In this document: positions 11,557 through 60,042 of the stretch, piece after piece | Layout of the letters: every line of letters begins with the position of its first letter | How positions within the stretch are numbered: the first letter of the stretch is position 1 | Source of the DNA: Candidatus Izimoplasma sp. HR2 | Lineage (GTDB): Bacteria > Bacillota_I > Bacilli_A > Izemoplasmatales > Izemoplasmataceae | Reading direction: 5' to 3' | DNA length: 64,000 nucleotides | Assembly (NCBI GenBank): GCA_000753575.1 | Contig: JRFF01000022.1 | Location: 1-64,000, forward strand | The notes under the pieces: model-generated | Database searches by the model: none | Told to the model about the DNA's origin: nothing | The model's input: the letters and a program-made list of their open reading frames with translations, nothing else | Position numbers and translations under genes: made by a program

Positions 11557-11584
11557 ATATTTGTATAGTAAAGGGGCTATTAAT

Positions 11585-20500: not shown

Positions 20501-21248
20501 AGAAGGTGAAGATTTACTTTATAGAATCAGATTATTTGATGATGACACAGTTGCTGTTCAAAATAATATGATATGTACTTATGATGAAGGATGTAATTTA
20601 TGGACTGAAAATTACATTGTTAAAGACTCAGAAGGAAATGTATTTAATACAGAAAGTGAATTTTGGTATTCTTCTGTCCAAGTATTCTTCAAAAAAGGTG
20701 ACGTAATGCCATCAGATCAAGAATTTACTGTAACATTTGAAATGACAAATATTGAGTATCAAAAAAATAGAATATTTGTTTATGATTTCATTTGGAGATT
20801 AAATGATGTAATTATTCTTGATGATAACTTATTCTTAATTGAAAGAGATCATTGGGCTCAAGGAGAAGATAACTTTGTATTAACTTATAATGATGAAACA
20901 GGAAGATATTCAGCTAAATATACAAATATATCTGCAGTAACAGAAATTACTAAGATCGAAAATGGCTATGTTGCAATAAACGATGATGAAACAGCGATAT
21001 TTAGTTTCTCGTATAATGATACTAAATCAGACGAGAATTATTATTATTTCGATGTAGCAAACTTAACTGAAGGACTACAAATAAATGGTGTAAATGATTT
21101 AATTGTAGATTATGATGGATCAATTTACTTTAAAGGAGTAGATAATTTCATACAAGACATTACTGGTACAATTAGTAGTGATGGAGTTGTAAGTATTGAT
21201 ACTGAATATGTAGAAAGAGAAATTATAAGAGTTAGTCCAGTAAACTAA
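17574..21248 (+). CDS. Large repetitive lipoprotein (1224 aa)
   Basis: Signal peptide with lipobox LTGC; D-x-x-G-N-P-I repeats and repeated Cys-pair modules. Confidence 0.85.
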   Translation: MKKLLVFGLLATLVLTLTGCNFGKDDKDDIDYSNLIPAVDGCKGEGDYIVVDGVCLLISDVLSGNIRIDGEETIVQYANSVELMTDFVADLTDSKGLAVVSRDVFDTTLNTGGGTEYDLINLAATANPDEDTENLIVKLTEDGFFEEVSFSDSTGLDVQIMANPLVLEVYGAYTIVVFEVDLGYDNQSVDFSQKVYDSLWAGGIYIIHNESGKLFATKEVTFTENTHTYTEDHSRYVYLTVTLNEPVIETQYIPQYDEFGSPIYDAEGNHVHDEILVPLLDSDGNPIVFTEGPILTEFQELPLVEYFIEQELDAEGNPIFDEEGNPIFVQELDAEGNPIFDENGDPVFVFIEQPILDENGDPIIEIIEIPLYDEEGNIRYQEQFEVELFIEDIVEITYTEHYANVIDNPLSNIAQKFVDKIISEYYSWDYYRVNNYMITSHGFSATDENIFYMEMKVDETDTAKQENFVMRLSYDSETNEIILEEYINATKAGFTDCEIIIDPRNNNIICDSWDGNIKVYSDTHGLKTIPDSESLYPVTFPNGELYFYDTMETYVEDLGYFTTALYNINSDGTLESHYIELGEKAQVCVGECDNYIDVDYYDQDGNAYGDYGYINLHLVTGDELIAKADIQILEITNMNSSRPVCNDDTWGCWGSTLIEIIDEAGDSVATFDQYFDYTGEDDTPFGITYQLDAQTEYDYELQWSQDDEVCDNEIGCTSQSYLIDNSINEYGLWMYENFIVSEGEKMIQYIRLGEENLGIYDYTKEVAGVVCEYDTCDEYIDIVIFDAEGIEISRYQNQVEVLKDEIIPLYIEYHMTGNTTIEERTGVCTTSTGCWEYYNTPESYYYYIYYEQGDTIYETIEFAASDKTIVTEEVLTSETCTDINGCYGQESVYEIVNDDGDVLYTFSNDYTHVEYGYKMPYSVTINIDDTIIEYKKESTEAIAVCEEETCRKQVEFVIGTDPNDYESIGWGYITFLEGEDLLYRIRLFDDDTVAVQNNMICTYDEGCNLWTENYIVKDSEGNVFNTESEFWYSSVQVFFKKGDVMPSDQEFTVTFEMTNIEYQKNRIFVYDFIWRLNDVIILDDNLFLIERDHWAQGEDNFVLTYNDETGRYSAKYTNISAVTEITKIENGYVAINDDETAIFSFSYNDTKSDENYYYFDVANLTEGLQINGVNDLIVDYDGSIYFKGVDNFIQDITGTISSDGVVSIDTEYVEREIIRVSPVN
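18501..18620 (+). repeat. 60-bp coding tandem repeat (2 copies)
   Basis: caagaacttgatgcagaaggaaatcct... at 18501 and caagaattagatgcagaaggaaatcct... at 18561; QELDAEGNPIFDE[EN]G[ND]P[IV]FV. Confidence 0.85.
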
Positions 21249-43400: not shown

Positions 43401-43633
43401 TTGTGACACCTACATGTTCAGATGATCAAACATTAGTAGATAATGTATGTGTTGATAATATTGATCCAGGTCCGATATATTGTTCAGATGAACCAAATAA
43501 TCCTGATTGTATTGAGGAAAATTTAGGTGATGATAATGATGATGGAAATTCTACATTAATCGTTGTGATTATTGTTGGTGTAGTTGGATTGTTAAGTGCA
43601 GGAATTTTATTCTTTAAAAAAATATTCATTTAA
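40493..43633 (+). CDS. pulA: Secreted, membrane-anchored type I pullulanase (GH13)
   Basis: Signal peptide; CBM41-like N-term (TLVVHYHRYDDTIGDYSLWLWP); YNWGYNPVNYNSPEGGYSTDPYDG-like motif, GFRFDLMAVHD, SAHDN; C-terminal TM. Confidence 0.92.
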   Translation: MRLKKILLMIILSLSLFVGMNVRAVGASTADTLVVHYHRYDDTIGDYSLWLWPMPLDANGTDYYFNSTDSYGSVATVNLSDTNLDGLDSIGIIVKKGDPWVKDISVNRYIDMTQPNGSGEVHVYLLQSEEFISYVSSDTGSCDRNVYNDPDECAQVIETKLLDTYFNDDLHIEFSTTVSVTSADVVVLKEGVPVTYTGFTSGTSGTLVLDDPVDVSKKYEIQVDLGTETVTNIIRVGSDYDSAIFQSAYNYDGELGAIYSLASTTFRLWAPVSSEVSLNLYDAGHTVATRADGDDTAVVHPMTYLEKGVWEVTIPGDQHGMYYTFNVVNSGSEVTDIQDPYSLSLGVNGLRSMVVDFAQINPVGWDTDSGIDGYTNPNDSIIYEIHIRDLTSQLSWGGPLEYAKTYMGFTVEGTSYTNTNTGITVSTGLDHLIELGITHVHLLPTYDQDNWNDETDMAFNWGYNPVNYNSPEGGYSTDPYDGSVRVTEYQEMVMALHDNGINVIQDVVYNHTGNGSGYSFNLVVPNYFYRLDSNGNFSNGTGVGNETASERYMVRKYIVDSVKMWATEYHIDGFRFDLMAVHDVTTMNLLSSELELIDPDIFVYGEPWGGGTIALAYNLQAGKNNITNMPSISAFNDQFRDAVKGSTFDASGSGYVTNSNGIYDIMKGIEGSVNWGWGLTSTQSVNYVSAHDNLTLYDKLKAANSASSYTEEIDYQARLANSIVMFSQGVPFLHAGVDFLRTKGGNHNSYDASDIVNQLNWVRKSIYVDSFEYYKGIIEIRKNFESFKMTSEADIEANLTFLYPPGTGMIGYNLTKNSEDILIYHNGGEEINNITLPSGAWSLISDRDFAGLDSLGTYSSTYPIEKAETLVFVRGNIGDVIPSPLHEVEVSLPEITNLFNSIYEGVTFNLTANTFIYEYTLDGTTFTTVSPASASVALEDLEPGVYNVQIKDIFDELSEVFVLTIKEQTVVTPTCSDDQTLVDNVCVDNIDPGPIYCSDEPNNPDCIEENLGDDNDDGNSTLIVVIIVGVVGLLSAGILFFKKIFI

Positions 43634-43639
43634 GTATAA

Positions 43640-43665
43640 AAGTGCGACTTGTTCGCACTTTTTTT
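43640..43665 (+). terminator. Intrinsic terminator
   Basis: aagtgcgacttgttcgcacttttttt. Confidence 0.85.
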
Positions 43666-43811
43666 ATTTATACTGAAAATGATTCCATATACCATGATTT
43701 ATATGTCAATTTATTTTATATTTTGTTTGTGAAAACACCCCGCACTTTAATTAGCTAAACTGCTCATATATGTCTAAACCAAGGTGATAACTACTATAAT
43801 TATCATTTGTG

Positions 43812-43867
43812 GAACCGCTATCATCTTTTGTCTATTTGTTGACTCTGACTTTTAAAAACAGTAAAAT
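43812..43867 (+). promoter_or_regulatory. Promoter of seven-module binding protein with shared upstream element
   Basis: gaaccgctatcatcttttgtctatttgttgact; TTGACT-17 bp-TAAAAT. Confidence 0.65.
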
Positions 43868-43883
43868 TAACATAACAAATATA

Positions 43884-43897
43884 TGAAAGCGTTTTAA
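43884..43897 (+). promoter_or_regulatory. Putative cre (CcpA) site
   Basis: TGAAAGCGTTTTAA, 13/14 to TGWAANCGNTNWCA, just downstream of -10. Confidence 0.6.
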
Positions 43898-43920
43898 AAA
43901 AGAAAAAAGGAGAAATGATT

Positions 43921-46900
43921 ATGAGAAAGATTTTAAATTTATCACTAGTTTTTATATTGTCAATCATGGTGGTTGGGTTAGGCTTTGCTAATGTTGAAGC
44001 TGCAGCAACTACTGACGTGACAATAAATCTTCACATACATCAGATTGATGGTGATTATACTAACACCGGTTCTGGTGCATGGGATGGTGTAAAATGGAAT
44101 GAATGGACTTTCGAGTATGTTGGAGCATATGCAACTGTAACTCAAAGTACTGATGATTTTGGAAAATTAATTTCAATAGTTTATACAGCAGACCAAATTA
44201 ATTTGGTTGCTAATTCTATTGAGTTTAAACCTACTAGAAATACAGGTGTAGATGATGCTGCTAACTACTTAGCGCCAGGTAATGGGCAAGTAATGGGTGA
44301 CGTTACTTCATTAAAAGATGGTAGTGCAACTACATTAGACTTATATTACGTTGAAGGAGCAAGTGAATTTGTTGTTGGTGAAGACGGATTAGGTCTATTA
44401 TTTGTAGTATATGTTGATCCTTACATAGCTGCAGACGAAACTGTTTATGATGAATGGGAAATGTGGAGTTGGGATAACGGTACTGATGGTACTGCTGACT
44501 TACTAGAATTTAATCAAGACTTATCAATTAAGTCTGGAATTTACAATATTGAAGGTAGACTTGGAGTAATCAAAGTTGATGACGATGCTACCTTAGATAC
44601 TGGATTTAAATTCAGATTAGGTGAATGGGTTGAACAAACTGCAGCTTATTCATTTGATAATACTGATATAAGAGGAACTGGAGCAGCTGTTGTTCATGTA
44701 GAAAAAGGAGTAACTCCTTTATATGATGATGGTGCAGAATTTGGTACTGCAGTTCATGCTAGTTATGAAATACTTGCAGGAAATAAATTTATAGATCCTA
44801 CTTTCGAAATTGGAAGATATCTAGCTGGAACGATTATTAAAACTCCAACTGAAGTTTCTATTGAATTTTTTACTCCTAAAAATCCAATGGCATATGACGA
44901 ATCAAGATTTGTTTTACGTGATGTAGATGGTAACGTAGTTCCAGTGACTTCAGTTAATATTTCTACTGCTGGTTCACTGGGTGATTATACATCTGATGTT
45001 ACTTGTGCTGTAGGTGAAAATAAGTTTATATTATATGTTAAATCGGGATTAGATAATTCATATTTAGGTGTAGTTGGAACTGTTCAGGATTGGATTATTG
45101 GAGACGCGATTGTTTCTACTAAAGATGACGAAAATGGATTAGCTGTATTTGAAATATGTACCACTCTTGAATCGGGGAATTTCAAACTTATTTATGATGT
45201 AGATCAAGATGGCTTTGATAATGATGATATCGAACTTACTCAAATAGATCAAACATTTGCTTTTAATGGTGAAACTGAGGCAGTTTATTTGATTGAAATG
45301 TCAACTCAAGTTGGTTCTTTCACTCAAGAAGTATTCCCTGTAGCTCAAGAAAGACACGTTGTAGTATATGTTGATACTGCATTAGATCATACAAAACTTG
45401 GACTTGTTGGAGCTTTCCAAGGTTGGAATACTGACAATCAATTAATGTCAACTCAAGACGGTTCTGAAGGATATGCAGTGTTTGAATTTACTGTAATTGA
45501 TGCAACTGGTGATTTTGTTGTATTTTGGGATGATCCAGCTTTAAGTGGATGGGATGATAAAATATCTGGTAGCAACAACTTATCATTCGATATGGGTGAC
45601 AATATGTCAATTGTATTATTTGTTGATGCAACTACTGCAGGCGTTCAATTTACTGCAGAAGAAGTTGACTCTGAATCAACAATTGTTGTAGGGACATATA
45701 CTCAAGAAGTATTCCCCGCAGATGAACAAAGATATTTAGTTGTTTATATTGATTCTGCTTTAGATCACACTAAACTTGGTTTAGTTGGTGACTTCCAAGG
45801 ATGGGACGTTGCTAATCCAATAATGTCAACAATGGATGATGCTTATGGATATGCTATCTTTGAGGTTGCTATTACTGGCGCAACTGGTGAATTTACTGTT
45901 GTATGGGATGATTTATTAGATTTTGGTTGGGATGATAAAATTGCAGGAATAGATGGTAACCTAACATTTGATATGGGTGAAGATTTATCTATCGTACTAT
46001 TTATAGATGAATTAGAACCTGAGTCTGTACAAGTTTTATCTGATGATGCTTCAACTTCAAATTTAGATACGGTTCTTGTTTCGTTTACTTTAGAAGAAGC
46101 AAATGAACTTCAATTTAGTGAAGAATATTATGTTGAATATATAGATGCGTTAAATACTTTAACTCAAACATATATAGTTATACATGTTGATTCATTATTG
46201 GATCACTCGAAACTTGGTATAGTTGGTACTGTACAAGGTTGGGATATTGCTAATCCGATAATGTCAACAATAGATGATTCTCTAGGATATGCTGTTTTCG
46301 AAATAGCAATTAATGAGTCTGCTGGAGAATTTAAATTATTATATGATACAGATGGAGATGGTTTCTCTTGGGATAGTGATTTAGACCCAGAAGTAACTCC
46401 TGAAAATCAAGTTTTTGATGCTGGAGATAACGATTCTTTAATTCTATTTATTGATGCAAACGTTATAGATCCTTTAGTACCGGAAATTGAAGAAGTTATT
46501 GAAGGAATTATGGTTGGTACATTTACTCAAGAAGTTTTCCCTTCAATTGAAAAATATTTAGTTATACATGTTGAATCTGCATTAGATCATTCAAAAATAG
46601 GTATTGTTGGTTCTGTACAAGGATGGGATATTAATAATCCAATTATGTCTACAGGAGATGACTCTGAAGGATATGCAGTATTTGAAATAGTATTAAGTGG
46701 CTCAGCAGGAGAATTTGTTATTGTGTTTGATGCTGCAGAAGATTGGGACTGGGGAGACAAAATTGCTGGTATGAGTGGAAATTTATCATTTGATATGGGT
46801 AGCGATTTAACTTATGTATTATTCGCAGATCCAGCAACTGATTCACAAGCAGTTGAAGTAATTGATGGTACCGGAACTGTTGTTGGGACATTTACACAAA

Positions 46901-48585
46901 CAGTATTTCCGACTATTGAAAAATATTTTGTATTATATGTTAAAACTATTTTAGATCCTTCAAGACTTGGAGTTGTTGGAGATATCCAAGGATGGGATAT
47001 CGATAATCCAATAATGTCAACTCAAGTTGAGAACTTAAATGGATATGTTGTATTTGAACTTACAGTAAGTGGTAATACAGGAGAATTCAAAGTTTTATAT
47101 GACTTAAAAGGTGATGGATTCACATGGGATGCAGCTTTAGATCCTGCAATTACTTCAGCTAATCAAGCATTTGATTTAGGAGAAGAAGATACTATTGATT
47201 TATTTATTGATGAAATAGATCCTACAGTTATAGTTTTAACTGGTGATGCTGGAATAGAAGTTGGAACATTTACTCAAACTGTGTTTGCAGCTACTGCAAA
47301 TAAAGTTATATATTCAGAAATGTTAGAATTTGGTCTTTCAAATAATTTTGTTATAGGAGATGCAGTTGCCGGTACTGGTACTTATGCTATTACTGAAACT
47401 GAATTTGTAGTTGAATTTAGAAACTCTGCTCCATTTATGACTGATATTGTATTAGTTGATAGTTCTGAAACAGTTATAGCTGTTGAAGACATTGATTATA
47501 TTCATGGAGTTGGAGAATATACAGAATTAGTAAGTTGTACATCTATGCAAAGTAAATTAATTGTTTACTTAAATACTATGGATACAGAAATTACTGACTT
47601 ATCACAACTTGGATTAGTTGGTTCACTTCAAGGATGGAATCCATCAAATGGTATAAATCCTGTTGGAATGGATTCACTTGGAAATTACGTATTTGAAATT
47701 TGTTTATACTCTTCTAGTGAAGATGTAAATGAAACTACACAAGAATTTAAAATCCTATTTGATGCAGATGGAGACTTTGATTGGGGAGATGCTTCAATGA
47801 ATCCTGGTAATGTTAGTGTTGACATTGATCCTATCTCAACTATTTACTTAGAAGAAGGTAATGCAAATACAGATACTAAATATCAAGTATTTACATTATT
47901 AGAAGTTAACGCATTAAGTACTGATGAAACCTATCAACTAAGATTTACTGATACAAATGGATTCTTAGTATATATTGATTTAGAAATTGATAATATTGGA
48001 CCAGTTCTATATGATACAGTTAAAGCAGATGTAGAATTTAATGTTGAAAAAGGTTCTGATTTCGATATTATGGATTACTATAATATATTTGAATATATTG
48101 ATACAAGAGCAGGAAATATTGATTATGTTGTAACTTCAGATATTGATACTTCAGTAATGGGAGTTCAAACATTTACAGTTACAGCTACAGATTTATGGAT
48201 GAATGTATCAACATTCTCTGTAGACTTTACAGTAATTGATACTATAGCACCTGTGATTACTTTAAGTACAGCTCCAGAGTTAGAAGTTGGAGATACTGAA
48301 CCAGATTGGGCTACTTATGCTACTGCAAATGAAGGAACAATAGTTGTTGATTCTTCTCAAGTAGATATGAGCGTTGCTGGAACTTACTTTGTTAATTATA
48401 CTGCAACTGATAGTGAAGATAATGAATCTTCTGTAAGTTTAGAAGTTACTATTGACGCAGTTGAAGTGCCTGTAGAAGATACAACAGGATGTTTCGGTTC
48501 AATTGGAAATGGTAGTGCGTTTATTATATTCGGTATTGTTGCTGTATTAGGTGGAGCTGCATTGTTCTTCCTAAGAAGAGTTTAG
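43921..48585 (+). CDS. Secreted multimodular putative starch/alpha-glucan-binding protein, no catalytic domain recognised
   Basis: Signal peptide, seven repeats of 'xLGxVGxxQGWxxxNPIMST...GYAVFEI..GEFKxxxD', Ig-like C-term region, C-terminal TM + RR; ATG 43921 best spaced from SD. Confidence 0.75.
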   Translation: MRKILNLSLVFILSIMVVGLGFANVEAAATTDVTINLHIHQIDGDYTNTGSGAWDGVKWNEWTFEYVGAYATVTQSTDDFGKLISIVYTADQINLVANSIEFKPTRNTGVDDAANYLAPGNGQVMGDVTSLKDGSATTLDLYYVEGASEFVVGEDGLGLLFVVYVDPYIAADETVYDEWEMWSWDNGTDGTADLLEFNQDLSIKSGIYNIEGRLGVIKVDDDATLDTGFKFRLGEWVEQTAAYSFDNTDIRGTGAAVVHVEKGVTPLYDDGAEFGTAVHASYEILAGNKFIDPTFEIGRYLAGTIIKTPTEVSIEFFTPKNPMAYDESRFVLRDVDGNVVPVTSVNISTAGSLGDYTSDVTCAVGENKFILYVKSGLDNSYLGVVGTVQDWIIGDAIVSTKDDENGLAVFEICTTLESGNFKLIYDVDQDGFDNDDIELTQIDQTFAFNGETEAVYLIEMSTQVGSFTQEVFPVAQERHVVVYVDTALDHTKLGLVGAFQGWNTDNQLMSTQDGSEGYAVFEFTVIDATGDFVVFWDDPALSGWDDKISGSNNLSFDMGDNMSIVLFVDATTAGVQFTAEEVDSESTIVVGTYTQEVFPADEQRYLVVYIDSALDHTKLGLVGDFQGWDVANPIMSTMDDAYGYAIFEVAITGATGEFTVVWDDLLDFGWDDKIAGIDGNLTFDMGEDLSIVLFIDELEPESVQVLSDDASTSNLDTVLVSFTLEEANELQFSEEYYVEYIDALNTLTQTYIVIHVDSLLDHSKLGIVGTVQGWDIANPIMSTIDDSLGYAVFEIAINESAGEFKLLYDTDGDGFSWDSDLDPEVTPENQVFDAGDNDSLILFIDANVIDPLVPEIEEVIEGIMVGTFTQEVFPSIEKYLVIHVESALDHSKIGIVGSVQGWDINNPIMSTGDDSEGYAVFEIVLSGSAGEFVIVFDAAEDWDWGDKIAGMSGNLSFDMGSDLTYVLFADPATDSQAVEVIDGTGTVVGTFTQTVFPTIEKYFVLYVKTILDPSRLGVVGDIQGWDIDNPIMSTQVENLNGYVVFELTVSGNTGEFKVLYDLKGDGFTWDAALDPAITSANQAFDLGEEDTIDLFIDEIDPTVIVLTGDAGIEVGTFTQTVFAATANKVIYSEMLEFGLSNNFVIGDAVAGTGTYAITETEFVVEFRNSAPFMTDIVLVDSSETVIAVEDIDYIHGVGEYTELVSCTSMQSKLIVYLNTMDTEITDLSQLGLVGSLQGWNPSNGINPVGMDSLGNYVFEICLYSSSEDVNETTQEFKILFDADGDFDWGDASMNPGNVSVDIDPISTIYLEEGNANTDTKYQVFTLLEVNALSTDETYQLRFTDTNGFLVYIDLEIDNIGPVLYDTVKADVEFNVEKGSDFDIMDYYNIFEYIDTRAGNIDYVVTSDIDTSVMGVQTFTVTATDLWMNVSTFSVDFTVIDTIAPVITLSTAPELEVGDTEPDWATYATANEGTIVVDSSQVDMSVAGTYFVNYTATDSEDNESSVSLEVTIDAVEVPVEDTTGCFGSIGNGSAFIIFGIVAVLGGAALFFLRRV

Positions 48586-48603
48586 GAAATGGAGGCAAAT
48601 AAA

Positions 48604-50433
48604 ATGAAAAAAATACTATTAGTTATTGTTACTTTACTGTTAGCTGTTACTCTAGTAGGGTGTGGTGAAACAGCGAATGATATTGCACCTGCGATTACTG
48701 GAATTACTAACAACGGATTTATTGATGTTAAAATAGGTGATGAAACAGTTGATATAACTGGAATCACTGCACAAGACTACGCTGGAAACAATGTTGTAGT
48801 TAAAGTTACTGGTAATTTTAATTTAAATGCAATTGGAGAATATGCAATTGTATTAAGTGCAACTGATGTTGATGGATTAAGAACATCTTATGATATTACA
48901 TTAAATGTGTTAGCTCTTACTTGTGATGAAGATCCTACTCAAGATATTTGTAAAACAGATGTAGAGAGAGCACAAGAATTATATGAAGCAGAAGGAATTT
49001 ATAATGTAGATTTAGATGCTAACGGGACTCCTGATTGGCAAGAAGATACAATAGAATTATCAATAGGATTCAGTTATTATGGTCCTGTTAATGAAGAAAA
49101 TGCTGTTTGGTTAAACATTGTTGAATTCATGGCACAATATCCAAACATTACTGTAACTCGTGATGCATTATTCTCAGAAGGTTGGGAAAATGGAGATGAT
49201 GGTTTACTTACATTACAAGAAACTGCATTAAACGAAGGGAACTTACCTGAAATATTCTTTAACCCTAAAGGTGCAGAAACTTACGATAAAGGTATGACTT
49301 TAGATTTAAGCCCTTATATTAATACAGATGAAGAAGCTACATTCATTACTCCTAATGCATTATCAGGAATGATGACTTACGATAACCTTGAAATGTGGGG
49401 TATCCCATGGCAAGGTGTTGGACCTTTAGTAGCAGTTAACACTGGATTACTTGATACAATTGGTGTTACAATTCCTGGTTATGATTGGACTTACGCAGAA
49501 TATGAAGCTCTTCGTGATGAAGTTGGTGAATTAACTGATGCTGGTTCATGTATATTCCCTGGTGTTATTGATTTCTCATATTTTGGAGCTAACTATTTTG
49601 ATAGTGTTCCAAACGGGTATAGAGGATATAATACTGAAACACAAAGATTTGATTTTGCACAAGCTGTAGGTTATGGAGCATGGCTTGAAAGTGTTGCTTC
49701 AGAAGCTAAACAAGGTTGGCACTTCTGGGATTTAACAGAAAGTGATCGTGAAACTGTTTGTCCAGATATATCAGATTCATGGACTGATGGTGTACGTGCA
49801 GTAAATACTATTTATTTATGGGAATTTAATACTGCTATTAGTAGTATGGTAGATAAAAACTTTGAAGTTGATGTTTATCCTTACCCAGTAGCACCTGAAG
49901 GTGGACAAACTGCAACTTATACTTACCATGATTACTACAGTCTTTCTAAAGTATTAGAAGACGACAGAGTTAAAGCAGAAGCTGCATTCCAATTAGTTAA
50001 ATGGCTTACATATGGTGAAGATGGACTTGAAAGTAGATGGGATATGGTTTATGACGCAGATCCTGTAGATTTTACTGATGGAACATTATACTTAATGGAT
50101 TATATTCAAGGTTGGCCAATTACTAGTAATCCTGCAGTTATGGCTATGCATCCTCTTGTAAAAGGATTCGCTACTGACTCAGTATTAGCTAGATATAACT
50201 TTGATGCTTTCCAAAATGAAGCTTTCCAATATCAAATGTCAAACGCTAATCCGTATCCAAGACAGATTCCTGCCTTTGCATCGGTAGCAAATGATTTTGA
50301 ACCTTGGACTATGAAGGATCAAATGCTTGAAGAAAGTTTAAACTTTGGGGATATTGCTCAAGGTATACAAGATACATTAAACGCATCTATTGTTGAATAT
50401 TTACAAAACTACAATAGTGTAAATCAAGATTAA
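48604..50433 (+). CDS. Sugar ABC transporter solute-binding lipoprotein with N-terminal Ig-like domain
   Basis: Lipobox LVGC; Ca-binding-like DLDANGTPDWQED; SBP body (EIFFNPKGAETYDKG..., WGIPWQGVGPLVAVNTGLL). Confidence 0.82.
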   Translation: MKKILLVIVTLLLAVTLVGCGETANDIAPAITGITNNGFIDVKIGDETVDITGITAQDYAGNNVVVKVTGNFNLNAIGEYAIVLSATDVDGLRTSYDITLNVLALTCDEDPTQDICKTDVERAQELYEAEGIYNVDLDANGTPDWQEDTIELSIGFSYYGPVNEENAVWLNIVEFMAQYPNITVTRDALFSEGWENGDDGLLTLQETALNEGNLPEIFFNPKGAETYDKGMTLDLSPYINTDEEATFITPNALSGMMTYDNLEMWGIPWQGVGPLVAVNTGLLDTIGVTIPGYDWTYAEYEALRDEVGELTDAGSCIFPGVIDFSYFGANYFDSVPNGYRGYNTETQRFDFAQAVGYGAWLESVASEAKQGWHFWDLTESDRETVCPDISDSWTDGVRAVNTIYLWEFNTAISSMVDKNFEVDVYPYPVAPEGGQTATYTYHDYYSLSKVLEDDRVKAEAAFQLVKWLTYGEDGLESRWDMVYDADPVDFTDGTLYLMDYIQGWPITSNPAVMAMHPLVKGFATDSVLARYNFDAFQNEAFQYQMSNANPYPRQIPAFASVANDFEPWTMKDQMLEESLNFGDIAQGIQDTLNASIVEYLQNYNSVNQD

Positions 50434-50449
50434 TAAATAATTAAAAATG

Positions 50450-50486
50450 GCCAATAACTCTTCAATTATTTTGAAGAGTTATTGGC
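50450..50486 (+). promoter_or_regulatory. 16-bp perfect intercistronic stem-loop
   Basis: GCCAATAACTCTTCAA-TTATT-TTGAAGAGTTATTGGC, no long U-tract. Confidence 0.75.
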
Positions 50487-50513
50487 TTATTAATATTTAA
50501 TAGGGGTGATATT

Positions 50514-53500
50514 ATGATTAAAAAAATAATAATAACTACTCTATTACTTTCATTGATTTTCGGAGGAAGTATATTTTCGCATTTAAATGAAGTAGCACTT
50601 GCAAACGACGTTGAAGAAGAAATTGCAGGATTAAAATATGATAGTATTGTTGATACAACAAACGCATATTTAGAAGGCTATGATGAGAGTAGTAGTTACT
50701 ATGGTGTATATAATTATTGGCAAGGTCTAGCTATTCCTAGTCCGGTAGAAGTATATACAATTACAAGCACAGAAATTAGTGGAGGAGAAATAGTAGCTAT
50801 TAATGATAGTTTTGGCTATGATAGTTCAACAGTTAAAGCAATACCTGGTGAAACAATTACATTTACTGTAGATGTTTTAAACGAAGGGCTTTATGAGTTT
50901 TATGTTGAACACTATCTTGCTGATGAGACATTGCTAAGACCATCACTTTCAGTTTCAGTAAATGAACAAGTTCAATACAATGAAATGTATAATTTAGAGT
51001 TGCCATTAAAATGGGAATTAGATAGTGAAAAAACGTTTGATAGATTCGGTGATGAAATAACTCCAAACAGCTATTTATATCAAGAGTGGAGAAATATTGG
51101 TTTATCCGATCCTAACTACTTTTTTGTTGAGCCTATAAAAATCTTTTTAGGTGAAGGTGTAAACGAAGTTTCTATTTTAGTAAATGAAGGGTACATTTTA
51201 TTCGGAGAAATTACTATAGGTAATCTATATGATGAAGCTCCGACTTATTCCGAATATTTTAGTTCTGTCGGTAGTAACACAAAAGCAACTAGTTTGCTTA
51301 CTATAGCCGCAGAAAGCTATACATATGAAAGTAAACAAAACATTAGAGCTAAGTTCCAAAGAGATCCTAGCTTAACACCATATTCATATAAAAACCGTGT
51401 TTTAAATGTACTAGATCAAACATCATACCGTAAGAGTGGAGATAGTGTTACTTACGTATTTGAAGTTGTTGAATCTGGGCTTTATAACATTTCTTTGAAA
51501 TACCTACAAAGCGAAAATGAAGGTCTTGCTACGTCAAGACTTATTAAGATAGATGGAGAAGTTCCGTTTAAAGAATTAGAAAGTTATTCAATCCCCTATT
51601 CAAGAAAATGGGATAATGAGACTTTAAATAATAATGGAGAAGCTTTTGAATTTTATTTAAGTGCTGGTACACATACATTAGAATTAACTGCGGTTAACTC
51701 TAATGTTGATGATGTATACCATCAACTTGTTCAAGTGTTAAGTGATATTGATGACTTAGCTCGTGAAGTTAATAAAATTACTGGTGGATTAACTGATAGA
51801 TATAGAGATTATAAACTTGAAGTATATATACCAGGTATTAAAGAAGAATTAATAAGAATTAATGCTGAAATAGTCGATGCACAAAATCAATTGAGAGTAA
51901 TCTATAATACAGATGATCAATCAATTATTTCAGAACTTGATGTAGCTATTAAATATATGAATCAATTTATTGAAGATCCTGACGAAATACCTCCGTTTAA
52001 ATCTAGATTTAATATTGGAGATGGATCGATATACGGAAGAATTAATATTATATTGCCAACATTAATTGATAATCCATTACAACTGGATTCAATTTATATC
52101 CATGGGGAAAATATAAATTTACCTAAACCTAGCACAAATATATTTGTAAAATCGTGGGAAGGAATAAAAGCATTTGTTTATTCATTCTTTGATCCTAAAT
52201 ATAATGATGTAGCCGAGGTTGATGATGAAACTATAGAAATATGGGTTCGTAATTCAAGACTATATATTGAAGTAATGCAGAGAATGATTGATGAAGAATT
52301 TACACCAGAAACTGGAGTAAAAGTTCAATTGTCAGTTATGCCTGATGAAAATAAAATAGTGCTCGCAAATGCTGCGAATACTACACCTGACGCAGCAATG
52401 GGGCTTAGTGTAACTAGACCATTTGAGTTTGCGTTACGTGGAATCGTAACTGACTTAACAGAATTTGAAGGATTTAGTGAACTAGCTACTGAGTTTAATC
52501 CTAATAGTTTTATTCCGTTTGTTTATGAAGATGGAGTTTACTCTATTCCTGAAACTCAGGATGTTAAATTACTATTTTATAGAAAAGATATTTTAGAGTT
52601 CTTAGATGTAGAACCACCACAAACGTGGGATGAAATTATTAGTTTAATTCCTGTGATGCAGAAATATAATTATTATTTCTACACACCTCTTGGTGGAGAT
52701 AATGCTTTTAAAACTTTTGGAGAAACAACACCATTTATTTATCAACATGGTGGAGTTTTATATAACGAAACGGGAGATGAAACAATTATTAATGAAAATG
52801 GATCTTATGATGCATTTGAATTTATGACTGATTTATTTAGTGTTTATAATGTTCCAATTACAACTTCGAATTTCTTCCAAAAATTCCGTGATGGACAAGT
52901 TCCTATTGGTATTGGGGATGGAAATATGTATATTCAATTAAAATATGCAGCACCAGAATTAGCTGGGCAATGGGGAGTTTTACCAATCCCTGGTGTCGTT
53001 ACTGATAAAGATGCTGAGTCTTGTCATGTTGAACTAGATGATGAAGACCGTTGTATTGAAAGATGGGATCCTACTTATGGTACTAGTAGTATTATCTTTA
53101 GTGATTCAGATAAACAAGATTTAGCTTGGGAGTATTTTAAATGGTGGTTTAGTAAAGAAGTTCAAAGTGACTTTACTTATCAACTTCAATCACTTCTAGG
53201 TGATGAATTCTTACATATGACAGCAAACGTTGAAGCATTTAGAACCAGTGCTTGGCCTAGTGATTCTAAATATGAAGTACTAGAACAATGGCAATGGGTT
53301 AGAACTACAGGTAGAGTTCCTGGGGATTATTTACTTGAAAGAGAGCTAAGTAATGCTTGGAACAAAGTAGTTAATGACGGAGTTAATGCTAGAGTTGCGA
53401 TTGATGACGCTGTAATTATTATTAATAGAGAATTAAAAAGAAAATTAACCGAGTTTGGATATTATGAAAATGGAGTTATGGTTAAACCATATATAGTTCC

Positions 53501-53546
53501 TACTTCTGAAAATATTTATTTATGGCTTAGAGAAGGAGGATACTAA
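50514..53546 (+). CDS. Large solute-binding protein with N-terminal accessory modules (1010 aa)
   Basis: Signal peptide without lipobox Cys; C-terminal ~450 aa SBP-like (VYSIPETQDVKLLFYRKDILEFLDVEPPQTWDEI). Confidence 0.78.
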   Translation: MIKKIIITTLLLSLIFGGSIFSHLNEVALANDVEEEIAGLKYDSIVDTTNAYLEGYDESSSYYGVYNYWQGLAIPSPVEVYTITSTEISGGEIVAINDSFGYDSSTVKAIPGETITFTVDVLNEGLYEFYVEHYLADETLLRPSLSVSVNEQVQYNEMYNLELPLKWELDSEKTFDRFGDEITPNSYLYQEWRNIGLSDPNYFFVEPIKIFLGEGVNEVSILVNEGYILFGEITIGNLYDEAPTYSEYFSSVGSNTKATSLLTIAAESYTYESKQNIRAKFQRDPSLTPYSYKNRVLNVLDQTSYRKSGDSVTYVFEVVESGLYNISLKYLQSENEGLATSRLIKIDGEVPFKELESYSIPYSRKWDNETLNNNGEAFEFYLSAGTHTLELTAVNSNVDDVYHQLVQVLSDIDDLAREVNKITGGLTDRYRDYKLEVYIPGIKEELIRINAEIVDAQNQLRVIYNTDDQSIISELDVAIKYMNQFIEDPDEIPPFKSRFNIGDGSIYGRINIILPTLIDNPLQLDSIYIHGENINLPKPSTNIFVKSWEGIKAFVYSFFDPKYNDVAEVDDETIEIWVRNSRLYIEVMQRMIDEEFTPETGVKVQLSVMPDENKIVLANAANTTPDAAMGLSVTRPFEFALRGIVTDLTEFEGFSELATEFNPNSFIPFVYEDGVYSIPETQDVKLLFYRKDILEFLDVEPPQTWDEIISLIPVMQKYNYYFYTPLGGDNAFKTFGETTPFIYQHGGVLYNETGDETIINENGSYDAFEFMTDLFSVYNVPITTSNFFQKFRDGQVPIGIGDGNMYIQLKYAAPELAGQWGVLPIPGVVTDKDAESCHVELDDEDRCIERWDPTYGTSSIIFSDSDKQDLAWEYFKWWFSKEVQSDFTYQLQSLLGDEFLHMTANVEAFRTSAWPSDSKYEVLEQWQWVRTTGRVPGDYLLERELSNAWNKVVNDGVNARVAIDDAVIIINRELKRKLTEFGYYENGVMVKPYIVPTSENIYLWLREGGY

Positions 53547-53547
53547 T

Positions 53548-54447
53548 ATGTACGAAAAAGGATGGAAAAAACATCTTCAATCACCATATTTGTTTATCGC
53601 TCCATACGCATTATTATTTGTATTAATTATAGCTACTCCTGTACTTGTAGCTATGGTACTTAGTTTTACTTCGTTTAATACAATTGAAACACCTGTGTTT
53701 ATAGGATTAAAGAATTATGTAGATATCTTTACTGGTGATACTGTATTCTTACAACACGCTGTTTCTAATACAATATTATTTAGTGTTATCGTTGGTCCTA
53801 TTGGATATATGATGGCATTCTTCCTAGCATGGATGTTGGCTCAAGTACCACATAGAGCTAGAACTATTTATGCGGTTATAATTTATTCACCATCTATTAC
53901 AGGAGCTATTATGATGGCTAATGTATGGAGAATAATTTTTAGTGGTGATGAAGCTGGATACATAAACTATATTTTAATTAATTGGTTTGGCGCAGATTCA
54001 CCAGTACAGTTTTTACAAGATGCTGATTACCTATTTCCTATTATGATTATTGTTTCATTATGGGGTAGTATGGGACTTGGTTTCTTAGCTATGCTTGCTG
54101 GTATATTAAACATTGATAGAAGTTTATATGAAGCAGCAGCAATTGACGGAATGAAAAATAGATGGCAAGAGATTTTCTATATTACTATTCCTTCAATTAA
54201 ACCACAAATGCTATTTAGTGCCGTAATGAGTATAATCGGTACGTTTAATGCAGCAGGACTGGCCCAGGCTTTGGCTGGTGGAGGAGTTCCTCCACAGTAC
54301 GCTGGATGGCTGATTGTAGACCATGCGAATGACTTTGGATTCACTCGTTTTGAAATGGGATATGCATCTGCTGTAACTGTTATTTTATTAATAATTGTAC
54401 TTTTATTTAATAAAATAGCTTATAGATTATTTGGAGAGAGGGGTTAG
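53548..54447 (+). CDS. Carbohydrate ABC transporter permease (MalF-like)
   Basis: EAA loop YEAAAIDGMKNRWQEIFYITIPSIKP. Confidence 0.92.
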   Translation: MYEKGWKKHLQSPYLFIAPYALLFVLIIATPVLVAMVLSFTSFNTIETPVFIGLKNYVDIFTGDTVFLQHAVSNTILFSVIVGPIGYMMAFFLAWMLAQVPHRARTIYAVIIYSPSITGAIMMANVWRIIFSGDEAGYINYILINWFGADSPVQFLQDADYLFPIMIIVSLWGSMGLGFLAMLAGILNIDRSLYEAAAIDGMKNRWQEIFYITIPSIKPQMLFSAVMSIIGTFNAAGLAQALAGGGVPPQYAGWLIVDHANDFGFTRFEMGYASAVTVILLIIVLLFNKIAYRLFGERG

Positions 54448-54452
54448 ATATT

Positions 54453-55328
54453 ATGGCAAATTCAGGTATAACATTTAATCCAGATCGATTCAAGAAAGAT
54501 CAATGGAAATTCCATGCATTCCTTATTACTCTAACGTTGTTTATGGGATCACCACTTATTTTTGTATTTAATCATGCGTTTAAACCATATAGTGAGTTAT
54601 TCGCTTATCCACCAAAATTCTTTGTTAGAAGACCTACACTTGAAAACTTCTTAAGACTTGCGACGTTTTCAAGAGAATCAGGAATTCCAATAAGTAGATA
54701 TATCTTTAATAGTGTTATTACTACTGGAGCAGTGGTTGTATTAACAGTTATAATCGGAAGTTTAGCTGCTTACGCTTTATCTAAACTAGAATTTAAAGGT
54801 AAAGAAACACTTAATAAGATTAACGTATTTAGTTTAATGTTTGTACCAGTAGCTGTGGCTATTCCACGTTTCTTGGTATTAATTAATATTGGTATTTATA
54901 ATACTTATTGGGCACACATTATTCCATTACTTGCGATGCCTGTAGGTATATTCTTAATTAAGCAATTTATGGATACGAATGTACCAAAAGAGCTTATTGA
55001 GGCTGCGAAGATTGATGGAGCAGGTAACTGGAGAATTTATTGGAGTATTGCATTACCACTTGTAATGCCTGCGATAGTTACTGTATCAATTTTAGCATTC
55101 CAGTTCTCTTGGAGTAATATTGAAGGATCAAGTATGTTTGTGGATATTGAAGCACTTCGTACTTTACCATTTTATATGTCAACTGTAATTAGTCAGCAAG
55201 GAAACATCGTAGTTACTGCCGGTGTTGGAGCTGCGTCTACATTAATTATGATAGTACCTAACTTAATTATCTTTGTATTTATGCAAAATAAAGTTATGGC
55301 ATCTATGGCAACAAGTGGTATAAAATAA
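54453..55328 (+). CDS. Carbohydrate ABC transporter permease (MalG-like)
   Basis: EAA loop IEAAKIDGAGNWRIYWSIALPLVMPA. Confidence 0.92.
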   Translation: MANSGITFNPDRFKKDQWKFHAFLITLTLFMGSPLIFVFNHAFKPYSELFAYPPKFFVRRPTLENFLRLATFSRESGIPISRYIFNSVITTGAVVVLTVIIGSLAAYALSKLEFKGKETLNKINVFSLMFVPVAVAIPRFLVLINIGIYNTYWAHIIPLLAMPVGIFLIKQFMDTNVPKELIEAAKIDGAGNWRIYWSIALPLVMPAIVTVSILAFQFSWSNIEGSSMFVDIEALRTLPFYMSTVISQQGNIVVTAGVGAASTLIMIVPNLIIFVFMQNKVMASMATSGIK

Positions 55329-57724
55329 TGAAAAGAATTAATTGGAACAATGCAGTAGCAATGATTATATTATTTACTCTTGTCTTATTTATTGGAATAG
55401 CAACTAGTTCTAAAGTAATGGCAAGTTCTACACCTTACTATACTTACACAACGGATAATGAAGATGGTGGTGTAAAAACTAGTGATGCATATACACCAGG
55501 TGAACAGATATTAGAAGCTGGTGGGGAAAGTTTTAAAACGTTAGAATATGTTTATGTAGATCATGAAGATTATATTTATATAACTGATAGTGGTAGAGCT
55601 AAAGTATTTATCTTTGATAAAGATTTAAACTTTATTGATGTTATTGAATATAATGGCTCGGTATCAGGAGCTGATGATGGATTTTATGCTGTTAATAGTA
55701 TTTATGTAACTGAAGAAAAAATATATATACCTGATTCATTTAGAAATAGTGTATTTGTTTTTGATCGTGAAGCTATTTTAAATAGAGACCAACAATATTT
55801 CTTATGGATGGAAGATATTGATGATAGTGATTCTTTATCTACTGGAGATGTATTTTACTTAAATGAAGAAATTGATGGAGTTAGTACTCCAATTGGTGAA
55901 CCTGTTTTTGTTGTAGAAGTAACTGGACAAAACGCAGATAATAGAGATATTGTATTATTTAAAGATTATGAAACAGGAGAAGAATTATTTACTAAAGTTG
56001 ATAAAGCTGAAATGATTGGTAAGATTCTTAATTGGGTAACTTATGATTATGATGGAACTGATGTTCTTAAATTTAATATATATGCCGCTAAGAATGAACC
56101 AATACAAGTAATCACAACGCCTACTGCACCTGTATTCCAAGAGGGATATTTGTTTGCGCCTAAGAAGGTTGTTGTTGATACTAGGGGTAACTTATATATA
56201 GTAGGTGCTCAGTCAAATAATGGATTAATTATGTTAAATGCTGAAGGTGAGTTTTTAACTTTCTTTGGTGGGAATCCACTTAGAACTCCATTTATTGATC
56301 AAATAAGATCTTTTATATTAACTGATATTCAAAAGGAAAAATTAAGAAATGAAAACTTAATTAGTATTGATTATGTAAGTAGTGTTGCGATAGATGAAAA
56401 AGGATTTATTTATACAGTTACATCTACTTTAGAAAATGATGTTATTAAGAAGTACAATGTATCTGGTAAAAACTACTTTAGTAGTGATGCTCTTGGATGG
56501 GTTGGAGCTGTAGATTTATGGGTTGGAGATTATGGTAATGTAGTTGTTGTTGAGGAGTTTGGTTGGATTAATGAATATAACTCTAATGGACAATTAATAT
56601 TTACTTTTAGTGTGAGTGACGCTGGAATAGACCGTGTAGGATTGCTTAGTTTACCTAAGAGTATTGCAATTGATTCTAAAGATAGATTGTTAGTAGTTGA
56701 TCAAGGTAATAAGTTACTTCAAATATATGAACCAACTGCATTTACAAATGCAGTTCATACTGCGCTTCAAGCTTATCAAGATGGTGATGAAGATTTAGCT
56801 AGAGTTAACTGGAAATCTACTTTAGAGTATGCGACTATCTTTGATTTAGCTCATATTGGGCTTGGGGATGCTTATATTAGACAGGGTGATTATGAATCTG
56901 CTTTGGTTGAGTATAAACTCGCTTCTTATAAAGCTGGTATTTCTAATACTTATTGGCAAGTTAGACAAGACTGGATGGAAGAGAATTTAGAGTTAGTATT
57001 CTTTGTTGTTTTAATGTTGTTTGTTGGAAGATGGATATTTAAGATTCTTAATAAAAAATATGATTATACTAAAGGATTAAGAAATAAATTTAAAGAATTA
57101 AGAACTAAAAGTAGAACTGTTGATGAACTTAGTTATATACCTGAGTTTATTAAACATCCTCTTGATGGATATTATCAAATTAAGAGAAAAGACAGGGTAT
57201 CTGTGAAAACCGCGACTATTATTTATGGTATGTTAGCTGTTGTTTTCGTAATGTATTATGAAGTTACTAATATTATTTTCCTAGAGAAAACTAATGTTAA
57301 TATTTTGTATGAATTAATAATACTCGGCAGTGTCCTTATTTTATGGGTAATAGCTAATTACTTTATTTGTTTAATTAATGACGGAGAAGGATCGTTTAAA
57401 AATGTATATGTATCAACTGCGATGAGTTTTACGCCATTATTATTTGTTGCACCAGTAATTATTTTACTTAGTAATGTATTAACATACCAAGAAGCTGTAT
57501 TCTATAGTGTTCCTTTAGCATTCACACTTATTTGGGTTTCGATATATTTCTTCTTTATGATTAAAGAGATCCATAATTATGAAGTTGGAGAAACAGTTAA
57601 TATAATCTTTAAAAGTATGTTTACAATGTTAATCATGGGTATATTTGTATTTGTTGTTTATAGTTTAAACAGTCAAATCTTCACTGTGTCCACTGAGATT
57701 GCAAGGGAGTTGATTGAAAGATGA
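55328..57724 (+). CDS. NHL-repeat/TPR-like protein with C-terminal Yip1-like membrane domain
   Basis: DHEDYIYITDSGRAKVFIFDKDLN, DTRGNLYIVG, DSKDRLLVVDQGNKLLQIYEP; TPR-like LGDAYIRQGDYESALVEYKLA; ~6 C-terminal TMs; overlaps neighbours. Confidence 0.7.
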   Translation: MKRINWNNAVAMIILFTLVLFIGIATSSKVMASSTPYYTYTTDNEDGGVKTSDAYTPGEQILEAGGESFKTLEYVYVDHEDYIYITDSGRAKVFIFDKDLNFIDVIEYNGSVSGADDGFYAVNSIYVTEEKIYIPDSFRNSVFVFDREAILNRDQQYFLWMEDIDDSDSLSTGDVFYLNEEIDGVSTPIGEPVFVVEVTGQNADNRDIVLFKDYETGEELFTKVDKAEMIGKILNWVTYDYDGTDVLKFNIYAAKNEPIQVITTPTAPVFQEGYLFAPKKVVVDTRGNLYIVGAQSNNGLIMLNAEGEFLTFFGGNPLRTPFIDQIRSFILTDIQKEKLRNENLISIDYVSSVAIDEKGFIYTVTSTLENDVIKKYNVSGKNYFSSDALGWVGAVDLWVGDYGNVVVVEEFGWINEYNSNGQLIFTFSVSDAGIDRVGLLSLPKSIAIDSKDRLLVVDQGNKLLQIYEPTAFTNAVHTALQAYQDGDEDLARVNWKSTLEYATIFDLAHIGLGDAYIRQGDYESALVEYKLASYKAGISNTYWQVRQDWMEENLELVFFVVLMLFVGRWIFKILNKKYDYTKGLRNKFKELRTKSRTVDELSYIPEFIKHPLDGYYQIKRKDRVSVKTATIIYGMLAVVFVMYYEVTNIIFLEKTNVNILYELIILGSVLILWVIANYFICLINDGEGSFKNVYVSTAMSFTPLLFVAPVIILLSNVLTYQEAVFYSVPLAFTLIWVSIYFFFMIKEIHNYEVGETVNIIFKSMFTMLIMGIFVFVVYSLNSQIFTVSTEIARELIER

Positions 57725-60042
57725 TGAAAAAAATATTATTATTTCTAATGATTCCTTTAACTTTAGTTGGATTTGTAGCAGCAGTTAAAGCTGTTAGTGC
57801 GGATGATATAGATTATGAGATTTTATATGGTAATTCTTTAAGTGGTGTTGAATTTGATTCAAATAGTTATATTGAAACTCTTGAAAAAGAAGAAGTTATT
57901 TATGATATGGTTATCCCTGATTCATTTACATTTGTAGCAGCGGATAGTGATATTGAATTATATGTTGAAGAGGAATCTTTGGCTATAGCAGTACGTGTTA
58001 AAGCTAATGGATATGTTTATTCTTCTTATAACTTTGATGATCCGTTTATTGGGGATAGTGAATCAATTACTAATCCTATTAAATCTGGAGTATCAATTGG
58101 ACTTTATAAAGAAAGTACTCCTGTTTCACAGTCTTATTTAGATGTTAGAACTGTTTATACTGATGATGGAGTAGAAGTAGGAGAAGAAAGAGTAGCAACA
58201 TCTACAATTAGAACAAATAGCACTGGATTTATTGCGAATATTGATTTTACTCATCCTGAGTTAATGATCAAGTTTGATTTGCATGTGAATATTGTGGATG
58301 GAAATATTGTTATTAATGTTCCTAGAGAAAGTATTATTGAATATAATCCTAATATCTGGCAATCAGATAAACAGTATTATATTTTAAGAAATATTGTATT
58401 ATTCCCTTATTTTGGGTCTACAACATCTGAAAGTGATGGATATGTTGTTATACCTGATGGATCTGGAGCTTTAATTAGTTTAGAATCTGATCCTGCGATT
58501 AAAGCGTCATTTGATTTAGATGTTTATGGTGAAGATTTAGGATATGTTTCACCGTCATTTAGATCAAGAGCATTAAGCATTAAACCAATATCACGTGTTA
58601 CTATGCCTCTATTTGGAATGGTTCATGATGTTGGTAATACAGGATTTTATGTAATTAGTGAGTCTGGGGCTAATTATTCACAAATTAAATTTAAATCAAC
58701 TGGATTGATTAATGATTACTATACTACTTATTTTAGTTATAGATATCGTGAATCTTATGAGCAATATCAATCACGTTCTAATGAGGACCAATATAGGATA
58801 GCTTTCCAAGATGATCCTAATGAATACGAGTTAGTACAAAGATATGTGTTCTTAAGCGGAAATCAAGCTGATTATGTTGGTATGGCTAAGTCATATCAAG
58901 ATTACTTATTAGATAATGGATTATTAGGTGAAGAGAGAAGAACTGATTACAATGAAACACCAACGAAAGTGGATTTCATTGGTTCTGAAATTACTATGGG
59001 TATCTTGTCTAGTAAATCACAGACTATTACTACATATAATGAAGTAACTGAGATATTAGCTACAATGCAAGAAGATGGTTATCAAAATTTAATAACTTCA
59101 TTAAAAACATTTGATATGAGAGATGACTCTTATAGATTTGATGTGATTAGAAGTTTAGGTGGAAGTAAAGACTTTGAAAAAATGATTGATTTCTTTGATG
59201 AAAATAATATTGAATTTAGTTATTTTAGTGATTATGTAAGAAATTATGAATCTTATTCTAAAGCTCACGCTCAAACTTTGAGTAAACGTGAAATTTATTA
59301 TATTGAATTATCATGGATGTTTTATGCACATTATGTAACTAGTACTAGATACTATGAACAGTTTGCGAAAGATGATTATGAAGATTTAAGTGAATATGGT
59401 ATTGAAGGAATCAGCTTAGCTGGATTCGATAAAGCTATATTTACCAATTATAAAGATGGTGTTGTTTATAGTAATAAAAATATGGATGAAATTGCCTTAG
59501 CTCTTAGTTATTTTGAAGAAAAAGATATTATGACTAATATTTATTTACCTGATGCTTATCTTTATAAATATGTAAATGAGTACTATGATACACCGATTTC
59601 ATCATCTGATTTTAGTTTTACTATGGCTTCAATTCCATTCTTACAGTTAGTTATTGGGGGATACGTGGATATGTATTCACCATACTTGAACTTTATAAGT
59701 GATGAATCCACATCTTTATTAAGACTAGTTGAATATGGAGTATACCCAAGTTATGTCTTAACTGGGGGATCTACATATGATTTAAAATCAACTAATTCAA
59801 GTAATGTTTATATAAGTGAATATGATGTTTTATCTAGAAGAATAGGAAACTATTTTAGATTCATTAACGAAGGTCTTACTAGTACAATCGGTAGTGAAAT
59901 GATAGATCATACGTTTATTGCTTCTGGTGTTGTTCTTGTTGAGTATGATAATGGAGTAAAAATTGTTCTTAATTATAATGATTTCGCCATTACAGTAGGA
60001 GATTATATTCTCCCTGCTGAAGGATATGAGGTGATATCATGA
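57721..60042 (+). CDS. DUF5696-like secreted/membrane-associated protein
   Basis: Signal peptide; overall resemblance to DUF5696 proteins of sugar ABC loci; ATGA overlaps both sides. Confidence 0.6.
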   Translation: MMKKILLFLMIPLTLVGFVAAVKAVSADDIDYEILYGNSLSGVEFDSNSYIETLEKEEVIYDMVIPDSFTFVAADSDIELYVEEESLAIAVRVKANGYVYSSYNFDDPFIGDSESITNPIKSGVSIGLYKESTPVSQSYLDVRTVYTDDGVEVGEERVATSTIRTNSTGFIANIDFTHPELMIKFDLHVNIVDGNIVINVPRESIIEYNPNIWQSDKQYYILRNIVLFPYFGSTTSESDGYVVIPDGSGALISLESDPAIKASFDLDVYGEDLGYVSPSFRSRALSIKPISRVTMPLFGMVHDVGNTGFYVISESGANYSQIKFKSTGLINDYYTTYFSYRYRESYEQYQSRSNEDQYRIAFQDDPNEYELVQRYVFLSGNQADYVGMAKSYQDYLLDNGLLGEERRTDYNETPTKVDFIGSEITMGILSSKSQTITTYNEVTEILATMQEDGYQNLITSLKTFDMRDDSYRFDVIRSLGGSKDFEKMIDFFDENNIEFSYFSDYVRNYESYSKAHAQTLSKREIYYIELSWMFYAHYVTSTRYYEQFAKDDYEDLSEYGIEGISLAGFDKAIFTNYKDGVVYSNKNMDEIALALSYFEEKDIMTNIYLPDAYLYKYVNEYYDTPISSSDFSFTMASIPFLQLVIGGYVDMYSPYLNFISDESTSLLRLVEYGVYPSYVLTGGSTYDLKSTNSSNVYISEYDVLSRRIGNYFRFINEGLTSTIGSEMIDHTFIASGVVLVEYDNGVKIVLNYNDFAITVGDYILPAEGYEVIS

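Follow-up and report, generated by a model that had tools for sequence, protein, structure and literature searches.

A 64,000-nucleotide stretch of the genome of Candidatus Izimoplasma sp. HR2 (contig JRFF01000022.1, hereafter the window) encodes, next to a pullulanase gene, a 1554-aa protein that is very likely secreted, tethered to the membrane and non-catalytic, and that would serve multivalent capture of α-glucans, feeding the pullulanase and an ABC importer. An earlier reading of the same DNA (the original prediction) had interpreted the modules as SusE/SusF-like, glucan-binding parts of a multivalent surface receptor encoded next to a pullulanase, and predicted fold, profile matches and gene linkage largely support this proposal. 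Its more specific claims also hold: a hidden Markov model (HMM) built from the modules likewise resolves seven copies, Pfam and NCBIfam scans of the protein report zero enzyme families, and a type I pullulanase lies directly upstream. That reading had overlooked a pair of CBM41/PUD domains at the N-terminus, as well as Ig-like domains and a transmembrane anchor at the C-terminus. The open reading frame (43915–48585, + strand) was confirmed as real; the length of 1556 aa given for a start at 43921 belongs to the ATG at 43915. We favour 43921, because it is better placed, 8 nt past an AAGGAG ribosome-binding site, and because the orthologues start with M(R/K)K at the equivalent position.

Each module comprises approximately 110 aa (residues 362–476, 474–587, 601–711, 746–857, 873–986, 996–1111 and 1207–1325), with the other six being 29–51% identical to module 5. 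Because TRF detected zero tandem repeats of module length in the DNA, the array is a diverged protein-level duplication and not an assembly artefact. The near-identical ‘VGTFTQxVFP’ strands described earlier as joining the modules are present at most junctions (1/2, 2/3, 4/5 and 5/6) and after module 6; some are imperfect, and none was found between modules 3 and 4. In a 33-row alignment of modules, four columns are invariant (G25, W30, G45 and D74, numbered as in module 5), and a conserved tryptophan pair occupies W30 (33/33 modules) and W72 (32/33). X25 modules are arranged in tandem in SusE/SusF, Sas20d2 and Sca5, and their two Trp residues lie 41–46 positions apart (PMC9112005), a range that includes the 42-residue spacing observed here.

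As the original prediction had suggested, the predicted fold of one module was compared with starch-binding structures. AlphaFold2, supplied with the 33-row alignment, modelled module 5 with a predicted local distance difference test (pLDDT) score of 89.1 and a predicted TM-score (pTM) of 0.80. The Foldseek search of the PDB was led by a CBM41 (6az5), the STBD1 CBM20 with maltotetraose (8x8k), the CBM41 of TmPulA (2j72), a β-amylase starch-binding domain (1cqy) and CBM25, with the AMPK glycogen-binding domain ranking slightly lower. For CBM20 (PF00686), the shared starch-binding β-sandwich fold is reflected in TM-scores of 0.61/0.69 with 8x8k and the same values with 1cqy. No Ig-type adhesin was among the best 50 PDB matches, and the outcome named in advance as refuting the proposal, modules belonging to a known Ig-like adhesin family, did not materialize; the only Ig-like domains are C-terminal.

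Sequence profiles point in the same direction. We used a narrow profile of window-type modules (A1) and a broader one (A4), which consists of A1 plus three single modules taken from proteins that other Bacilli encode next to pullulanase. In the PDB, A4 matched BT3088 (SGBPdex; E 5e-4), the CBM20 of Aspergillus niger glucoamylase (1ac0; 6e-4) and SusF (0.11), the significance of these matches hanging on the three added modules. Both Trp columns align with W35 and W82 of the 1ac0 chain, in our reading the site-1 residues W543 and W590. Single modules weakly match three Pfam families: SusF_SusE (PF16411; one module, E 9.7e-4, with no match in the organism's own genome or 20 relatives), CBM20 (best E 0.019, two members) and X25 (PF22058; one of the 33 modules, E 0.064, with none in the own genome). 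By hhalign, the modules reached 91% with an X25-like set and 52% with a CBM20-like set, both of them small and drawn from weak family matches (the X25-like set comprises six sequences, most under the Pfam cut-off), and none of five comparison alignments, which included CBM48, PUD and other domains of the same protein, reached 2%. Thus, the proposed likeness to SusE/SusF stands as far as the matches of A4 to BT3088 and, weakly, to SusF reach, but strict membership fails on the anchor, the partners and scores under the family cut-offs. As a tentative extension, which we consider possible rather than likely, the modules may constitute an undescribed carbohydrate-binding module family intermediate between X25 and CBM20, whose adjacent copies cooperate in grooves for helical α-glucan within a variable-length, membrane-tethered array of wall-less bacteria. 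Pfam matches to Cerato-platanin, DUF1410, MG2 and similar families were regarded as noise, and weak class-wide matches in genomes G109 and G401 were set aside, their host proteins being read as glycogen branching enzymes.

Several observations weigh against glucan capture by these modules. None of the modules passes any Pfam cut-off, and A1 alone gave no convincing PDB match (BT3088 0.079, SusF 7.6), which is why A4 was built. TM-scores of the leading fold matches are approximately 0.5–0.65 (up to 0.65 with CGTase entries), pointing, at the level of a model, to the starch-binding type of the β-sandwich class and no single family, and human HGSNAT chains, which are not starch binders, are also among the top matches. 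Module 1 lacks the second conserved Trp, the AlphaFold2 model of the N-terminal half (six sequences) is poor (pLDDT 56), and most relatives with a pullulanase lack this module type.

Outside the array, sequence comparisons indicate two N-terminal CBM41/PUD domains, weak in the window protein and clear in its orthologues. PUD (PF03714) stays below the Pfam cut-off in the window protein (E 9.5e-4), and the orthologues of G004, G014 and G028 carry two PUD stretches each with whole-protein scores over the cut-off (best E 3.6e-8); against the PUD of the neighbouring pullulanases, domain 2 reached an hhalign probability of 88.5% and domain 1 43.7%. The low-confidence N-terminal model was left out of the support for this assignment. 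At the other end, the transmembrane segment is the likely tether, since neither a penicillin-binding protein (PBP) transpeptidase (none over the family cut-off in 21 genomes) nor a sortase (none found in the own genome) was detected; the own assembly is 92.8% complete, hence these absences are not proof. They fit a wall-less cell with a transmembrane tether, and the window protein has no NCBIfam sorting-signal match. Tails of the type GC(F/S)..S or similar, followed by a transmembrane segment and a basic end, occur in the window protein and in proteins of loci L026, L027 and L063, pullulanases and binding proteins alike.

The gene is consistently linked to α-glucan genes. A secreted pullulanase adjoins it in all seven examined genomes that carry it, contigs permitting, and in five of them (G000, G001, G006, G014 and G028) the pullulanase is followed by this gene, a lipoprotein of approximately 610–640 aa, a MalE-like protein of approximately 1010 aa and two permeases; G002 and G004 show the same order as far as their contigs reach. 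An α-amylase-family gene also lies near the locus. Upstream of the gene, the promoter-like TTGACT-17-TAAAAT and the TGWAARCGYTTT site are kept in register in 7/7 genomes; the TGGAACCGCTATCA motif is clear in six and recurs, with one mismatch, ahead of the pullulanase gene in the window. The TGGAACCGCTATCA and TGWAARCGYTTT sites resemble cre/LacI-family sites, and the genome has four LacI-type matches. Elsewhere in the window, a cre-like TGAAAGCGCTTAAA (941–954) directly precedes an amino-acid-kinase gene, after which come genes of the carbamoyltransferase and peptidyl-arginine-deiminase families.

In the order as a whole, the module type was found in 6 of 90 genomes and 2 of 29 genera, although a match to pullulanase was obtained in 57 of 61 relatives; because most relatives with the enzyme lack the modules, the protein is not essential for α-glucan use. 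Smaller CBM41 proteins beside or near pullulanases in other Bacilli give it the look of an expanded version of a recurrent type of non-catalytic pullulanase partner. In three genomes from other families of the class (G144, G109 and G147), the pullulanase adjoins a 608–653-aa protein that bears an Ig-like domain besides two PUD stretches, with a solute-binding protein after it; the proteins of G109 and G147 each contain one module marked by weak matches to X25 and CBM20. The pullulanase of G046 adjoins an 812-aa protein that has two PUD stretches, and the pullulanase cluster of G010 includes a 728-aa protein that combines PUD with CBM26, a solute-binding protein and permeases lying between it and the enzyme. 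Among the pullulanase neighbourhoods of ten further relatives, L102 and L106 have CBM41-type non-catalytic proteins, and none was found in the others at the profile thresholds used, within the contig pieces examined. We found no description of the window protein in open-licence papers.

Module number ranges from four to nine among intact genes (HMM counts: nine in G001, five in G006, four each in G014 and G028, and, for G004, three and two on two separate contig pieces). In the module tree, many forks of which are weak, the last modules cluster (99/96), as do the first modules of four genomes (97/87), and some inner modules form lineage-specific pairs (for example, m3/m4 of G001, 100/99; m2/m4 of G006, 99/94). 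End modules thus appear conserved and inner modules duplicated by lineage. A lamin tail domain (PF00932) splits the last module of the G028 orthologue (L027; residues ~1039–1145, E 7e-18), and another lies between modules of the G004 orthologue (L023; residues ~730–817, E 4.8e-11).

This pattern bears on the idea that the modules are chiefly spacers, forming a stalk whose glucan binding is confined to the two CBM41 domains and perhaps the end modules. Variation in the number of inner modules between conserved ends would suit a stalk, and isolated X25 modules of Sas20d2 and Sca5 did not bind on their own, unlike SusF modules, which bind at about 300 µM (PMC9112005). However, the duplicated inner modules keep the Trp pair, which a pure spacer would not need, and we consider this explanation improbable. 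Somewhat less so, although still rather unlikely, is a diet of another α-glucan, such as dextran or another α-1,6-rich polymer, which would keep the receptor principle and change the food. In its favour, the top sequence match in the PDB is BT3088, which its depositors named SGBPdex, but the neighbouring enzyme is a type I pullulanase, an α-amylase-family gene is nearby, and the fold search was led by CBM41 and CBM20 structures. Least plausible, with very little weight in our judgement, is an adhesin of Ig-like type that attaches to proteins, cells or surfaces and lies beside the pullulanase by chance. The C-terminal Ig-like domains and one weak adhesin-repeat profile match (E 0.029 with A1, 0.44 with A4) speak for it; against it stand the starch-binding modules heading the fold search, the CBM41 domains and the pullulanase linkage described above.

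Under the preferred reading of multivalent α-glucan capture, the two CBM41 domains and up to seven X25/CBM20-like modules would bind starch- or glycogen-type chains, each site weakly and the whole array avidly, and the transmembrane segment would keep the protein, and hence the polymer, outside a cell seemingly without a peptidoglycan wall. The neighbouring pullulanase, itself with a transmembrane tail, would cleave the captured polymer at its α-1,6 branches, and the freed maltodextrins would enter the cell through the importer whose solute-binding proteins and permeases are encoded just downstream.

Such an arrangement recalls several known systems. Like SusE/SusF and BT3088 of Bacteroides, the window protein is non-catalytic, with tandem β-sandwich modules, a ‘VG..gW’ motif and a gene beside those for glucan enzymes and an importer, but SusE/SusF are outer-membrane lipoproteins with two or three modules, whereas it is probably tethered by a transmembrane segment and has seven modules and CBM41 domains. 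The partnership also differs from SusC/SusD (not searched separately), its downstream partners being ABC permeases. Sas20 domain 2 and Sca5 of Ruminococcus bromii are likewise non-catalytic Firmicute surface starch binders with tandem X25 modules and paired Trp residues, but belong to cohesin-based amylosomes, with Sca5 attached by sortase, whereas the window protein has no Pfam cohesin match and its genome no sortase that we found. The pullulanase of Bacillus acidopullulyticus (CBM41-X45a-X25-X45b-CBM48-GH13; PMC4712565) shares the kinds and order of accessory parts (CBM41, spacer, X25-like); in the window, however, these parts are encoded by a gene of their own that has no catalytic domain, and the X25-like module occurs in multiple copies. 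CBM20, as in A. niger glucoamylase, is usually a single domain on an enzyme, whereas the modules described here are in tandem.

Table 1. Coordinates of the gene, its parts and its neighbours in the window.
Feature	Coordinates	Strand	Basis
Type I pullulanase: CBM41, CBM48, GH13, C-terminal transmembrane segment	40484..43633	+	Pfam; NCBIfam TIGR02104, E 7e-194; transmembrane prediction
Intergenic control region	43633..43920	+	Sequence scan; seven-genome comparison
Terminator-like hairpin downstream of pullulanase	43638-43662		
Operator-like TGGAACCGCTATCA	43810-43823		
Promoter-like TTGACT-17-TAAAAT	43839-43867		
cre/LacI-like TGAAAGCGTTTTAA	43884-43897		
Ribosome-binding site AAGGAG	about 43907-43912		
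Whole gene, 1554-aa non-catalytic, predicted surface protein	43921..48585	+	Start choice, module HMM, orthologue comparison
Predicted signal peptide, residues 1-28	43921..44004	+	By eye; N-terminal helix 2-22 in model
CBM41/PUD-like domain 1, residues ~33-148	44017..44364	+	Pfam PUD under cut-off; orthologue PUD stretches
CBM41/PUD-like domain 2, residues ~155-270	44383..44730	+	hhalign to neighbouring pullulanases' PUD; orthologue Pfam matches
Linker like pullulanase X45-type spacer, residues ~296-360	44806..45000	+	Sequence pattern and domain order
Module 1, without second conserved Trp	45004..45348	+	Module HMM, alignment
Module 2	45340..45681	+	Module HMM, alignment
Module 3	45721..46053	+	Module HMM, alignment
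Module 4	46156..46491	+	Module HMM, alignment
Module 5, used for modelling and searches	46537..46878	+	Module HMM, AlphaFold2, fold search
Module 6	46906..47253	+	Module HMM, alignment
Module 7, orthologous to last module of relatives	47539..47895	+	Module HMM, module tree
C-terminal Ig-like region, two repeats by eye	48013..48459	+	Second repeat weakly matches Bact_surface_Ig-like, E 1.2e-4, under cut-off
C-terminal transmembrane segment and RRV tail, GCFGS just before	48514..48582	+	Transmembrane prediction
Putative solute-binding lipoprotein with Ig-like domain	48589..50433	+	Pfam: Ig-like domain only; solute-binding by eye
1010-aa protein with MalE-like solute-binding domain	50514..53546	+	Pfam, NCBIfam
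Two sugar ABC permeases, MalF/MalG type	53548..55328	+	NCBIfam

The two genes for solute-binding proteins are separated by a 17-pair hairpin (50449–50487), terminator-like on both strands, and the permeases are followed by an NHL/Yip1-domain protein and a DUF5696 protein (55328–60042), an NHL/Yip1-type start recurring at the ends of several orthologous loci. Elsewhere, the window contains a single ORF (11561–13828) in which a methyltransferase domain is combined with three GNAT acetyltransferase stretches, and a predicted 1224-aa lipoprotein (17574–21248) that matches no Pfam family and contains internal ‘D(A/E)(E)GNPIF’ repeats.

If the modules do bind α-glucan, SusE/F- or amylosome-like capture, so far a matter of Bacteroides and R. 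bromii, would extend to apparently wall-less Bacilli related to Mollicutes, where it would work through a simple membrane tether, with no outer membrane or sortase. The arrays of four to nine modules with fixed ends would then offer a natural series on valency versus affinity for polymeric α-glucan, with the two Trp columns as sites for point tests.

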